This document shows, one piece after another, positions 59,080 to 63,811 of a DNA stretch of 64,000 nt. This DNA is from Paenibacillus sp. FJAT-26967. Lineage in GTDB: Bacteria; Bacillota; Bacilli; Paenibacillales; NBRC-103111. The notes below the pieces were generated by a model. It saw nothing but the letters and a program-made list of their open reading frames with translations. It did no database searches and was not told the DNA's origin. The stretch spans positions 1 to 64,000 of the forward strand of contig NZ_LMXH01000008.1 of assembly GCF_001541095.1 (NCBI RefSeq). Reading direction: 5' to 3'. Positions within the stretch are counted from its first letter, which is position 1. Every line of letters starts with the position of its first letter. The position numbers were made by a program, and so were the translations under genes.

Positions 59080-61368
59080 ATGAAGGTTCATGTCTACGCC
59101 GCTGTCAACGATACAAATTGGCAATGGCATATCTCTTTATCGATTTCTGTTGATTGCGAGTATTGGTTCGAAAGGTTCGGGCCTACAGTACGGATTGTGC
59201 TGCTGGAGCCCCCTGTCTCTATGGGACAAGCTCTTAGTATAATTGAGTATTTTGTTTCGAAAGATACAAATCCGCTTGCAATATCAAGCTTAACTGCCGC
59301 ATATACCATAAATTCAAATGAATATAATAAAATTCCCCCAGATACCCCTTATTATAGAGAAACCTGTCAATTGGCAGATAACACGTTAGAAGCGGCTGCA
59401 TTATTCCCGGCTCTCTGCCCGAAAGAACGATACCCCTCTTTGGATGAAAAGCACTCTCTTGTATCAACTAGTATGTTCCCCGGTTCTAAAGGCCCAGCAC
59501 GACAACAACCTTCACCCGATCCATCTCAGAATAATCTCCGATCCTGTTCAGCCCATGTAACTCCACCCCAGTCGAATTCAATGCCGCTTATTTCAAACGT
59601 TCCCCCTGATCCTTCTAAACAATTCCATCTAGGTATAAAGACTCACCCCGCAGCAGAGCTTAGAAATTCTATTCATCTACATAAACCTATCCCAAAAGAA
59701 ATTTATAAATTTCTCCCAAAAAATTTTTTCGAGATATTTTCGGATTTACACTTTCACATAATTACTTTTGATAGTTGGATATCCAGCAACAAGCTGAAGA
59801 AGTTAATTGATGTTGACCTTTATATAAATATCGTGCGGGCCCTTGAGGGCAGGAATTTGCAGAAAGATGAGGTGCTGAGATTACTGGATTCTATAGGTCT
59901 GCAGCATTTAATCACAGAAAAAGGGGAATGGAAAGATTATCTGCAGTTAGCTTATCTAAACGAGGATATAAAGGTGACGAATGGCTTGGAGTGGCATCGA
60001 CGGGGCACCTTTCCTGCGTGGTGGCGTAAAGTGCTGCATTATTCATGCAAGCGCTGCGGAAGTTCAAGATTCCACACAACTCTTTGCTATCACTGCGGAA
60101 CGGACTGCCCTTATTGTGAAGAGTGTCTCACTATGGGGCGCATGAGATTTTGTACTTTATTAGTCCAGGGGAGCCGGAATCCAACTGCAGCAGTCCTGGC
60201 TAATGATTTCGATCGAAGAGATCTGCTTGAGGGTGAAAGCACTAAAGAAGAATTTGAACGCTTTCTAAAGCCGTGGGGTCTAAGTTCGGCACAGATGGCT
60301 GCTTCGCTTGAAGCGCTGTCTTTTCTCTGCACCACAGCTCCCGGCGCGGCGGCGATTCAACAGCCGCGCCAAGAGCCGGCGCCCAGTTTTCTAATCTGGG
60401 CCGTAACAGGAGCGGGAAAAACCGAAATGATTTTCCCGCTCCTCCAGTACGAGCTTGCGCACAGACGCAAGCTTGCCATCGCCACGCCGCGCAGGGACGT
60501 CGTGCTCGAATTGCAGCCGCGTCTTATGCGCGCATTCGAAGGCTGCAGGATCGTCACGCTCTACGGCGGCGGCAGCCAGACCTGGGAAAGCGGCGATATT
60601 ACGATAGCTACCACGCATCAGCTTATGCGCTTCGCGCATGCGTTTGATTGCGTAATTATCGATGAGATCGACGCTTTCCCGTACCTGAACAGCGCGGCGC
60701 TAGAATTCGCCGCGCGCAAGGCTCTGGCGCCGGGAGGACGCTATGTCCTCCTCTCGGCGACGCCTCCACGGGCACTGCAGCGCGAGGCAGCGGCGGGCCG
60801 CCTGCCTCATGTCACCGTGCCCGTGCGCTATCACCGACAGCCGCTGCCCGTTCCGCAGCGCCTGTCGGTACCTCCGCTGCGGAAGATCCTCCGCAGCGGG
60901 GTCCTGCCTCAGGCGCTGCACACACGCCTGAGGGGTTCGCTCGAACGCGGCGCGCAGCTGTTCGTGTTCGTGCCGCAGATCAAGCTGGTGGACCCGCTGG
61001 TGCAGCTGCTTGAGACTTTTTGGCCGGACAAGCGGATTGCCGGCACTTCGTCTAAGGACAGCGAACGATCGGGTAAAGTAACCGACTTTCGGGGGAAGAA
61101 TACCGATATTCTTGTGACTACGACGATATTGGAGAGGGGAGTGACTGTTCCCAAGACCGATGTTTTTATTCTCGACGCAGACTCCTCGCTGTTCAACGAA
61201 GCGGCTCTTGTTCAGATGGCCGGCCGCGCGGGCCGTTCTAAAGACGATCCCAAAGGGCGCGTTTATTTGGCAGCACCCGAAAAAACATCGTCACAAGCAC
61301 GTGCTGTAAAGCAAATACAAAGAATGAACTCCATAGCCCGAAGAAGAGGTTATCTGCTTAAAGAGTAA
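59080..61368 (+). CDS. comFA: competence DNA translocase ComFA (DEAD-type helicase)
   Basis: A 762-aa ATPase. The N-terminal 300 residues are weakly conserved and AT-rich. A four-cysteine zinc cluster follows from residue 323 (CKRC, CYHCG, CPYCEEC). Walker A is VTGAGKTE (442-449), the DEAD-box equivalent is DEID (528-531), and helicase motifs VTTTILERGVTVP and QMAGRAGRS are present. ComFA drives uptake of single-stranded DNA at the membrane. DNA from about 60330 to 61020 is far GC-richer than the first third. GCGGGTGAG precedes the ATG. No comFB lies between it and comFC. Confidence 0.92.
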   Translation: MKVHVYAAVNDTNWQWHISLSISVDCEYWFERFGPTVRIVLLEPPVSMGQALSIIEYFVSKDTNPLAISSLTAAYTINSNEYNKIPPDTPYYRETCQLADNTLEAAALFPALCPKERYPSLDEKHSLVSTSMFPGSKGPARQQPSPDPSQNNLRSCSAHVTPPQSNSMPLISNVPPDPSKQFHLGIKTHPAAELRNSIHLHKPIPKEIYKFLPKNFFEIFSDLHFHIITFDSWISSNKLKKLIDVDLYINIVRALEGRNLQKDEVLRLLDSIGLQHLITEKGEWKDYLQLAYLNEDIKVTNGLEWHRRGTFPAWWRKVLHYSCKRCGSSRFHTTLCYHCGTDCPYCEECLTMGRMRFCTLLVQGSRNPTAAVLANDFDRRDLLEGESTKEEFERFLKPWGLSSAQMAASLEALSFLCTTAPGAAAIQQPRQEPAPSFLIWAVTGAGKTEMIFPLLQYELAHRRKLAIATPRRDVVLELQPRLMRAFEGCRIVTLYGGGSQTWESGDITIATTHQLMRFAHAFDCVIIDEIDAFPYLNSAALEFAARKALAPGGRYVLLSATPPRALQREAAAGRLPHVTVPVRYHRQPLPVPQRLSVPPLRKILRSGVLPQALHTRLRGSLERGAQLFVFVPQIKLVDPLVQLLETFWPDKRIAGTSSKDSERSGKVTDFRGKNTDILVTTTILERGVTVPKTDVFILDADSSLFNEAALVQMAGRAGRSKDDPKGRVYLAAPEKTSSQARAVKQIQRMNSIARRRGYLLKE

Positions 61369-61389: not shown

Positions 61390-62193
61390 ATGATAGGCCT
61401 GTCTGAACCGGAAAAAAGCACGAGATGGTGGAGTAAAATAAAGCAGATGTTTCAACTTGTTGTTGGTGCCGGCAGTCACGGATCTGGCCGTTCGGCTTGT
61501 CTTAGCTGCGGAGGAAGCAGAAATGGGCAGGAGAACTCACTGGCTCTTTGCAGGGGTTGCTTTGATAGGATCCCATGGATTACTGAAATCTGCTGCCTCA
61601 TATGCGGCCGTCCCGAAGATTGCCCAGACTGTAGACGGCGTCCGGATACCTATTATTGCTATAGCAGAAGCGCTGTAAAATATGATGCCTTGATGAAGGA
61701 GTGGCTGGCCGCTTACAAGTATAGGGGGAACGAGCGGATGGTTTCCGTCTTGACCGGCATGCTTGTACACGCTTATCATCAGCTGCATAAAGAAATCTTG
61801 GCCCAGGGTGGAAGTTTTGACTGTGTGAGCTATGTTCCGATGAACCCAAGCCGGTTAGAAGAAAGAGGATTCAACCAGGCGGAAGCAATGGCATCTGATC
61901 TGGGAGTTCTGCTCCGGCTTCCCGTTGTCCCTCTTTTGGAAAGGACTCGTCATACGGCCAAGCAGAGCTTCAAAAGCAGATCAGATCGACTTCGGGATCT
62001 GGAAGGAGCTTTTCAAGTAAGAAGGGAAGGCAGAGAATGGCTGCGGGGTTATTCTCAGACATTCGGCCGAACCACCTTACGTGTGCTCATTCTCGATGAT
62101 GTGTACACGACGGGGAGCACCCTTAATCAATGTGCGAAGACTCTGACAAGGGAATTTCCTTTAGAGGTATACGGGTTGATGTGGGCCCGATAA
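61390..62193 (+). CDS. comFC: ComF family protein (ComFC)
   Basis: A 267-aa phosphoribosyltransferase-fold protein with an N-terminal zinc finger: Cys37, Cys40, Cys54, Cys57, then CCLIC (68-72) and CPDC (78-81). The PRPP loop VLILDDVYTTGSTLN starts near residue 234. It works with ComFA in natural transformation. GGAGGCTGA lies 22 nt after the comFA stop, so the two form one operon. Confidence 0.92.
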   Translation: MIGLSEPEKSTRWWSKIKQMFQLVVGAGSHGSGRSACLSCGGSRNGQENSLALCRGCFDRIPWITEICCLICGRPEDCPDCRRRPDTYYCYSRSAVKYDALMKEWLAAYKYRGNERMVSVLTGMLVHAYHQLHKEILAQGGSFDCVSYVPMNPSRLEERGFNQAEAMASDLGVLLRLPVVPLLERTRHTAKQSFKSRSDRLRDLEGAFQVRREGREWLRGYSQTFGRTTLRVLILDDVYTTGSTLNQCAKTLTREFPLEVYGLMWAR

Positions 62194-62218
62194 TTTTTTG
62201 CTTAGAGACCAGCGGTAG

Positions 62219-62247
62219 TTGATTATCGGTTAGAATTTTGGTGTAAT
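62219..62247 (+). promoter_or_regulatory. candidate sigma-A promoter downstream of comFC
   Basis: TTGATT (62219-62224), 17-bp spacer, TGTAAT (62242-62247). It would serve the small open frame at 62314 and yvyF. Confidence 0.35.
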
Positions 62248-62313
62248 TTATTCTTCAGGCAGCTTTTTAGCATAAGGATTCTGGTTGGTTAATTAAATAA
62301 GGTGGAACTCCAT

Positions 62314-62451
62314 ATGTTTCTTTTATTTTATGGGTATACCCGTTGTACGCTTTGTCCTATAAAAGGCGAATTCTTCAAAATTTCCACATACTTCCGGGCA
62401 GCTCTTCTCAAGGTCAGATGGATACGTTACACTAGGTACATACCCTATTAA
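62314..62451 (+). CDS. possible 45-aa protein with a CxxC motif
   Basis: ATG at 62314 has AAGGTGG (62299-62305) at 8-nt spacing and opens a 45-codon frame. The start MFLLFYGYTRCTLCPIKGEF holds a CTLC pair; the rest is basic and aromatic. It ends 15 nt before yvyF. The good ribosome binding site is the main argument. The C-terminal part is not obviously a folded protein, and chance is a serious alternative. Confidence 0.3.
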   Translation: MFLLFYGYTRCTLCPIKGEFFKISTYFRAALLKVRWIRYTRYIPY

Positions 62452-62465
62452 CAAAGGTGATTACA

Positions 62466-62882
62466 ATGAGTATGAACGTACAGAACTGTCCGAGATGCGG
62501 CAAGTTATTTGTAAAGAGCTTCGCAGAGTCCTGCCCGGCGTGTGTAAAAGAAACAGAGGCGCAATACACGGCGTGTGTAGAATTTCTCCGCAACAATCGC
62601 AAATCCGACCTTCAGGAACTCCATGAGGGAACCGAAGTCCCAATGCGGCAGATTATCCGGTTTATCCGGGAAGGCAGAATTTCCATTGCGGATTCCCCTA
62701 ATGTCACATATCCATGTGAAGTTTGCGGTTCGCCGATTCGGGAACACACGATGTGTGACTCCTGCCGCCAGAGATTAGTTAAGGATGTTAACCAGGTTTT
62801 GGAAGAAGGCAAAAGCAGCGCAGCTGCTGAGAAGGAGTCTCTTCATTACCGGATTACAGACCGTTTGAAAGAGCGTCATTAA
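62466..62882 (+). CDS. yvyF: YvyF family flagellar-operon protein (TIGR03826)
   Basis: A 138-aa protein with two paired zinc-ribbon-like units: NCPRCGKLF with CPAC near the N-terminus, and CEVCGSPI with CDSCRQRL around residues 84-100. Between them is VPMRQIIRFIREGRI, a helix-turn-helix-like segment. It is a probable regulator of the late flagellar operon, always upstream of flgM in Bacillus relatives. AAAGGTGA (62453-62460) supports the ATG at 62466; 62472 is possible. Confidence 0.87.
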   Translation: MSMNVQNCPRCGKLFVKSFAESCPACVKETEAQYTACVEFLRNNRKSDLQELHEGTEVPMRQIIRFIREGRISIADSPNVTYPCEVCGSPIREHTMCDSCRQRLVKDVNQVLEEGKSSAAAEKESLHYRITDRLKERH

Positions 62883-62901
62883 CAGAAACCCGTTTTTTAA
62901 C

Positions 62902-62929
62902 TAAAAAGATTATACTCTCCTGCCGATAA
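62902..62929 (+). promoter_or_regulatory. sigma-D promoter of flgM
   Basis: TAAA (62902-62905), 16-nt spacer, GCCGATAA (62922-62929), one base from the consensus GCCGATAT. flgM in Bacillus also has a sigma-D promoter in this place. The -10 overlaps the left arm of the terminator described next. Confidence 0.85.
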
Positions 62930-62955
62930 TAGTAATAACGATTATCGGTTTTTTT
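62923..62955 (+). terminator. terminator after yvyF, overlapping the sigma-D -10
   Basis: CCGATAAT (62923-62930) pairs perfectly with ATTATCGG (62941-62948), 10-nt loop, followed by T7 (62949-62955). A palindrome AAACCGGCCGGTTT follows at 62960-62973 in the flgM leader. Confidence 0.8.
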
Positions 62956-63022
62956 GTAAAAACCGGCCGGTTTCCGGTCGTTGCTACATAGAATCCTCCA
63001 AATGATATGAAGAGGTGATGAG

Positions 63023-63286
63023 ATGAAAATCAACGAGAGCCACCGGATTGGGAACGTAAATCCGTATGCCAAACATAAAGATCAAATGCAGGTATCAGCA
63101 GCAGATAAAAGAAACCGCCCGAAGGACGAGGTTCAAATTTCAACGGAAGCCAAGGAACTTCTCGGAGCCGCTGGAGATGACATCCGGACCCGTAAAGTAG
63201 AGGAACTGAAGCAGCAGGTGAAATCAGGTACGTATCATGTTGAAGCCGGCAAAATCGCAGAGAAGCTCCTCCCTTATCTTAAATAA
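63023..63286 (+). CDS. flgM: anti-sigma-D factor FlgM
   Basis: An 87-aa protein, disordered and charged at the N-terminus. The C-terminal sigma-binding region has VQISTEAKELL, RTRKVEELKQQVKSGTYHVEAGKIAEKLL. It binds SigD until the hook is complete and FlgM is removed. Its own promoter is sigma-D dependent, so the loop is autoregulatory. GAGGTGATGAG precedes the ATG. Confidence 0.93.
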   Translation: MKINESHRIGNVNPYAKHKDQMQVSAADKRNRPKDEVQISTEAKELLGAAGDDIRTRKVEELKQQVKSGTYHVEAGKIAEKLLPYLK

Positions 63287-63310: not shown

Positions 63311-63811
63311 ATGCCTGTAACGGAAATTGCGTCTGTACTGGACCGGATGATCGAATGCCACCAGCAGCTTCAAGTAATCGGTGTTCGCAAGAGAGAAGCG
63401 ATTCTGCAGAATTCTATTCAAGAGCTCTCGGCTCTTGTTCACAAGGAATCGAAGTGTGTTCGTGAAATACAGGAACTCGACCAGCAGCGGATTCTCAAGA
63501 TTAACGAATACCTCGTTTCAAGATGTTATAAAATGAATCCCAATATTACCGTGAGTGAGCTCGTTAAGCTTGTTTTTAAGGCAGAGGAGAAGCAGCTTCT
63601 AATGGATCGTCAAGAGAAGCTGCTTCGTGAGCTGCTGCAGCTCAAAGAGCTTAACGAGACGAACCGTCAACTGGTTGAACAGTCTCTTGGATATATAGAT
63701 CTTTCCCTTGATCTATTGACGGCTACGCCTGAGCAAGACGCGGTGTATGCACATCCGGCTCAGCAAGGACAATCCAAGCGGAAGAACGCTTATTTTGACA
63801 CAAGAGCTTAA
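63311..63811 (+). CDS. flgN: flagellar export chaperone FlgN
   Basis: A 166-aa, mostly helical FlgN-family protein (YvyG), with long heptad-like stretches (SALVHKESKCVREIQELDQQ and LLMDRQEKLLRELLQLKELN). It would chaperone the hook-filament junction proteins FlgK and FlgL before export. AGGTGA supports the ATG at 63311 rather than the GTG at 63302. Placed between flgM and flgK. Confidence 0.85.
   Translation: MPVTEIASVLDRMIECHQQLQVIGVRKREAILQNSIQELSALVHKESKCVREIQELDQQRILKINEYLVSRCYKMNPNITVSELVKLVFKAEEKQLLMDRQEKLLRELLQLKELNETNRQLVEQSLGYIDLSLDLLTATPEQDAVYAHPAQQGQSKRKNAYFDTRA

Follow-up and report, generated by a model that had tools for sequence, protein, structure and literature searches.

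We analyzed a 64,000-nucleotide stretch of Paenibacillus sp. FJAT-26967 (hereafter the window), in which a comFA-like gene, a comFC-like gene, yvyF, flgM and flgN follow one another in that order (Table 1). The name comFA is our presumption, taken from gene order and not from a model of that name. The nearest named record for YvyF belongs to Paenibacillus lutrae and is 99% identical. The region of interest is the spacer between yvyF and flgM, which holds a SigD-type promoter and a hairpin; the ribosome-binding site of flgM lies about 60 nt past this hairpin and is not sequestered by it.

Table 1. Genes and sequence elements at the comF-yvyF-flgM locus (window coordinates)
Feature	Position	Strand	Basis and remarks
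comFA-like DEAD/helicase ORF	59080..61368	+	PF00270 and PF00271, both over cut-off; possible source of upstream read-through
comFC-like gene	61390..62193	+	TIGR00201 (comF), E 3.8e-20, 72.6 bits, under cut-off 233.55
yvyF	62466..62882	+	TIGR03826, E 8e-35, 119.8 bits, just below cut-off 124.15
SigD -35, TAAA	62902-62905	+	Read from sequence; TAAA in 96/100 family promoters
-35/-10 spacer, 16 nt			16-nt spacer in 100/100 family promoters
SigD -10, GCCGATAA	62922-62929	+	Read from sequence
Terminator left arm, CCGATAAT	62923-62930	+	Sequence, RNA fold, covariation
Hairpin loop	62931-62940	+	10 nt
Predicted transcription start, A	62937	+	8th base past the -10, in the loop; conserved TA
Terminator right arm, ATTATCGG	62941-62948	+	Sequence, covariation; near 5′ end of predicted flgM message
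Terminator T7 tract	62949-62955	+	Sequence
flgM ribosome-binding site, AGAGGTG	63011..63017	+	Read from sequence; outside hairpin
flgM (anti-SigD factor)	63023..63286	+	PF04316, E 1.7e-16, and TIGR03824, both over cut-off
flgN	63311..63811	+	PF05130, E 4e-21; listed ORF starts at GTG 63302

The consensus of SigD (sigma-28) promoters comprises TAAA, a spacer of 15–16 nt and GCCGATAW, and all three elements are present in TAAA-N16-GCCGATAA at 62902–62929. This promoter string occurs once in the window, and 1 of 100 shuffled windows contained one. Its -10 overlaps the left arm of a hairpin in which 62923–62930 pairs perfectly with 62941–62948, a further G-U pair being possible between G62922 and 62949. 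The G+C-containing stem exceeds six pairs and the U-tract follows directly, as in an intrinsic terminator. The stem is short and moderately stable, with 8–9 pairs closing the 10-nt loop; RNA folding of 62915–62955 yielded −10.9 kcal/mol (z −3.6), a value equaled by 2 of 200 shuffles. The combined hairpin and T string occurs once in the window and in none of 100 shuffled windows, and a generic hairpin scan omitted it because its loop of 10 nt lies beyond the limit of 8 set in that scan. The first-pass annotation had the -10 and the left arm sharing 62923–62929 within a terminator formed by 62923–62948 plus T7, coordinates that we confirmed to the base; the overlap itself is close to certain.

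The bases just past the -10 point to where transcription begins. Across 87 distinct hairpin-bearing sequences, T occupies base 7 at a frequency of 0.98 and A base 8 at 0.95, and the corresponding values in 42 distinct hairpin-less sequences are 0.76 and 0.93 (a profile built from 43 of the 60 hairpin-less promoters outside the own family, namely those whose -35 reads TAAA or TTAA and whose distance to flgM is below 110 nt). Since this TA is conserved without the hairpin too, the start seems to be set by the promoter and to fall in the loop, and we predict, in agreement with the first-pass annotation, that flgM transcription begins at 62937, four bases ahead of the right arm. In addition, CGGTTTTTTT within 62945–62968 is able to pair with GTAAAAACCG, which would give the predicted SigD transcript a 5′ hairpin; by eye, this pairing is not kept in locus L003.

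We consider it highly probable that this is a self-insulating SigD promoter, whose -10 doubles as the left arm of the intrinsic terminator ending the yvyF (comF-yvyF) transcript. RNA polymerase arriving from comF/yvyF would transcribe both arms, allowing the hairpin to form and to terminate transcription just inside the flgM leader. Polymerase initiated by SigD at about 62937 would never make the left arm and would pass, and the resulting flgM message would have the right arm and U-tract among its first ~20 nt. An almost identical set of eight bases would start flgM transcription and stop that of its neighbor; the promoter itself would still be transcribed across despite the overlap, and flgM is what the overlap would spare. 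Such an arrangement would tie flgM to SigD, giving negative feedback, and would protect the gene from transcription that arrives from upstream. We infer termination, start, SigD dependence and shielding of the FlgM level from sequence, and insulation of flgM is very plausible on these grounds; termination may be partial, because the stem is short and moderately stable and has a 10-nt loop. The proposal of the first-pass annotation that read-through stops at the hairpin and SigD-started RNA escapes is supported, as a prediction of function, by this anatomy, by the start-like TA in the loop and by RNA-type covariation of the arms.

The arrangement is widespread among relatives. FlgM was detected in 101 of 104 genomes of the own family, giving 100 analyzed upstream regions, and in 204 of 299 genomes of the class, of which the class loci analyzed (109 in the comparison with ComK) are a hand-picked part. 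We scored a terminator as embedded when a hairpin of at least six Watson-Crick pairs (3 G-C) used the -10 and was followed by at least four T in eight bases, and derived expected counts by applying the identical relaxed rule after dinucleotide shuffling of the 45 nt downstream. Co-occurrence of promoter and terminator, which the first-pass annotation had raised for relatives, holds in 144 of 224 regions upstream of flgM (4.2 expected from shuffles). The rule was relaxed after the misses of a stricter version were known: that version demanded an overlap of at least 5 bases and allowed short loops only, so that regions of the ACCGATAA type escaped it and the count was 107 of 224 (6.5 expected). 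Left out of the counts were L100, for which no start was located, L168 and L190, in which the script located no flgM start, L226, for which a wrong start had been picked, L237, L238, L241, L245 and L253 (guessed stretches), L173, L185 and L196 (no flgM in the stretch) and loci from genomes already represented, with the exception of G303, which contributes two regions (L218 and L270).

Within the own family, a SigD-like promoter is present in all 100 regions; its spacer always measures 16 nt, and its -10 is GCCGATAA in 56, ACCGATAA in 37, TCCGATAW in 6 and GCCGATAT in 1. The -10 lies within the left arm of a terminator in 90 of them (2.2 expected), and among the 10 regions failing the rule are those of genera g12 (all four examined) and g2 (both), in which the T-run or the stem is missing. 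Strong interrupted hairpins that use the -10 only partly occur at three further exceptions (L151, L157 and L159), and the count given by the rule may therefore be slightly low. At L116, from genus g12, the hairpin TCCGATAA/TTATCGGA is kept and the T-run is absent, possibly representing a decaying terminator.

Among other families of the class, the embedded terminator is present in 54 of 124 regions and the rule fails in 70. It was found in f2 (1/1), f4 (2/2), f6 (3/3), f8 (4/4), f9 (2/2), f10 (11/13), f12, f22, f28 and f30 (1/1 each), f17 (4/5), f21 (10/11), f23 (1/2), f32 (9/13) and f46 (3/4). It was absent from the regions of f13 (0/14), f24 (0/6), f47 (0/4), f26, f29, f37, f39 and f43 (0/3 each) and of smaller groups, including f3, f5 and f7 of the own order (0/1 each). 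Three loci of f32 (L290, L291 and L087), a family that has the terminator in 9 of 13 regions, retain a SigD-like promoter with GCCGATGT and lack the terminator, a possible recent loss suited to comparison.

Covariation between the arms was assessed over nine pairs in 55 distinct sequences aligned with MAFFT and drawn from those passing the hairpin rule. Paired cells amounted to 91.3% (shuffled mean 81.8), a percentage biased upward because the set was pre-chosen by that rule. Cells differing from the common pair on both sides numbered 51 (shuffled mean 11.6), the covariation score was 0.337 (shuffled mean 0.172), and 0 of 500 shuffles reached any of these three values. When the partner was shifted by one to three columns, pairing fell to 22–48%. 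The number of further pair types, 13, was not unusual (shuffled mean 11.1; reached by 83 of 500). Unpaired cells were present in the three pairs nearest the loop (12, 9 and 13) and in column pair 10/37, where the six unpaired cells are ACCGATAA-type rows misaligned by MAFFT. Specifically, the -10 and its partner arm change together, as in GCCGATAA/TTATCGG, GCCGATGA/TCATCGG, GCCGATTA/TAATCGG or TAGTCGG, ACCGATAC/GTATCGG and GTCGATAA/TTATCGAC, and between families GATAA/TTATC alternates with GATGA/TCATC, GATTA/TAATC or TAGTC, and GATAC/GTATC. Two positions hold G-U pairs in 20 and 17 of the 55 cells, and stem extensions differ in sequence between genera. Covariation that includes G-U pairs suggests selection at the RNA level.

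In the own family, one exact promoter-plus-hairpin pattern was seen at flgM alone. A search of 103 family genomes with TAAA-N16-GCCGATAA-N(4-16)-TTATCGG returned 48 matches, one in each of 48 genomes and all at flgM by by-eye comparison of coordinates, and the reversed pattern returned 0. With the -35 omitted, the hairpin-plus-T pattern gave 42 matches in 102 genomes, 40 of them at flgM by eye and the other two at G061:C5 and G030:C19. The promoter string alone matched 34 times (13 genomes searched, matches in 10), including 26 sites not at flgM. None of these 26 carries the hairpin, a weak control, since the reversed string gives 24 matches in the same 13 genomes and most of the 26 are therefore probably chance. 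Within the genome of the window, allowing R as the first base of the -10 gave 8 matches to the string versus 3 to its reverse.

These data bear on three other readings of the overlap. On the first, a dimeric regulator of flgM would bind the inverted repeat as its DNA operator and the T-run would be incidental; an inverted repeat centered near +1 is in a common position for operators. We regard this as very unlikely. Of the 224 regions, 144 pass a rule that demands a T-rich tail, arm sequences vary between families while their pairing is kept, and different genera extend their stems with different sequences. The G-U pairs, moreover, keep an RNA stem and break a DNA palindrome, thus favoring an RNA hairpin over an operator.

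Alternatively, the overlap may reflect mere economy: GCCGAT makes a good stem, the shared bases would be incidental, and insulation would carry no regulatory importance. Any terminator at this place would serve yvyF, and the -10 lies only 58–71 nt before flgM in most family members. The overlap is nevertheless kept where space is ample, in f21 at promoters 73–291 nt before flgM, and in the window the -10 begins 101 nt ahead of the gene; space saving therefore fails to explain it, and the "minimal space" invoked in the first-pass annotation is unsupported. Absence of the overlap from the 26 other promoter-string sites also speaks against economy but counts for little, most of these probably not being promoters. 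On balance, economy appears improbable. A similarly low probability attaches to a conditional terminator, or attenuator, through which regulated comF/yvyF read-through would feed flgM under some condition. The moderate stability of the window stem and the G-U closing pairs of many stems would suit such a device, but an Rfam search of 62150–63100 matched no family at E up to 1, and by eye the spacers hold no further conserved element.

The self-insulating promoter has partial counterparts in known systems. The transposase gene of IS10/Tn10 is reportedly protected from external promoters (Davis, Simons and Kleckner, 1985): its own transcript starts inside an inverted repeat, and only read-through RNA contains both arms and is silenced. 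The flgM arrangement would resemble it in having its own start between the arms, as predicted from the conserved TA in the loop. It differs in that the IS10 hairpin hides a ribosome-binding site, whereas the flgM hairpin is a predicted terminator and the promoter -10 is itself the arm. The E. coli frd terminator is likewise reported to overlap the ampC attenuator (Grundstrom and Jaurin, 1982); in both cases, sequence that terminates an upstream operon also belongs to the region controlling the gene after it. The ampC transcripts, however, contain the entire hairpin and undergo attenuation, whereas the predicted flgM transcripts lack the left arm, which is the -10 and lies upstream of their start.

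In B. subtilis, according to PMC5540618, Rho-dependent termination acts at slrA, slrR and the flhO-flhP antisense RNA, and flgM expression is unchanged without Rho. As predicted for the flgM terminator, termination there guards motility regulation from stray transcription; it is Rho-dependent in those cases, in contrast to the predicted intrinsic terminator described here. The main text of a P. riograndensis RNA-seq paper (PMC5670726) contains neither "flgM" nor "SigD". Among the literature matches listed, seen in part and with subscription papers mostly outside their scope, none described a promoter-embedded terminator at flgM. The element would represent a conserved natural design in which the insulating stop signal is not set off by transcripts from the promoter itself, and it lends itself to engineering as a compact, self-insulated promoter.

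The absence of the embedded terminator from some families coincides with the presence of the competence regulator ComK. The six f24 regions without it comprise L207, L209 and L210, which we take to belong to the B. subtilis group because their FlgM resembles that of B. subtilis, and three others. The lineage around B. subtilis seems to lack the element. There, comFA likewise lies upstream of flgM, and flgM is under SigD control; transcription of comFA driven by ComK continues into flgM and reduces motility (PMC4793158, quoting Liu and Zuber 1998). An embedded terminator would block exactly this ComK-driven path from comF into flgM.

A search for ComK (PF06338) recovered it from 121 of the 299 class genomes. 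The FlgM and ComK surveys (299 class genomes each) were assumed to be the same draw, with 158 ComK negatives unlisted, and 109 loci could be classified for both ComK and the terminator. The embedded terminator was present at 0 of 40 loci with clear ComK (E below 1e-15), 5 of 9 with weak matches and 37 of 60 with none. Counted by family, it occurred in 0 of 12 with ComK versus 9 of 20 others, including those with weak matches only (Fisher p 0.012, overstated because the families are related). In the own family, ComK was matched in 1 of 103 genomes (E 6e-4), and the terminator is nevertheless missing from 10 of 100 regions, which shows that a genome without ComK need not carry it; many other families without ComK lack it as well.

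The pattern fits the idea that lineages using comF read-through lack the insulator, but the association is confounded with phylogeny and could equally stem from one old event inherited by one branch. We tentatively propose, with rather less than even confidence, that the terminator is an old Bacilli element separating motility from comF, and that the lineage bearing ComK, by lacking it, became open to the comF-to-flgM read-through with which B. subtilis shuts off SigD in competence. If true, the textbook B. subtilis circuit would be the derived, uninsulated state. The embedded terminator itself yields a direct prediction of why transcription in competence enters flgM in B. subtilis and should not do so in Paenibacillus or other lineages bearing the element.

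Lack of the embedded hairpin does not always leave flgM without a nearby terminator-like hairpin. Another terminator-like hairpin lies within 250 nt upstream of flgM at 15 of the 70 hairpin-less promoters, and not all of these are therefore uninsulated; the count is an underestimate because the scan is strict and misses half of the 144 embedded terminators, detecting 72. In f13, the loci L258, L264 and L272, from ComK-bearing genomes, have a separate, non-overlapping terminator-like hairpin about 80–95 nt before flgM, possibly another way of insulating the gene.

Several further candidates were noted around yvyF. The comFC-yvyF spacer (62187–62250) contains another CCGATAAT..ATTATCGG inverted repeat, whose loop is long, and TAAA-N16-ACCGATAA on the minus strand; neither is kept in the close relatives L031–L034, and both were treated as chance. 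An antisense SigD promoter reading from the right arm was rejected, as by eye the minus strand of the window has no TAAA 15–16 nt upstream of its ACCGATAA. At L035 and L036, a -10-like site, GCCGATAAACTATA, just upstream of yvyF hints at a SigD promoter for that gene.
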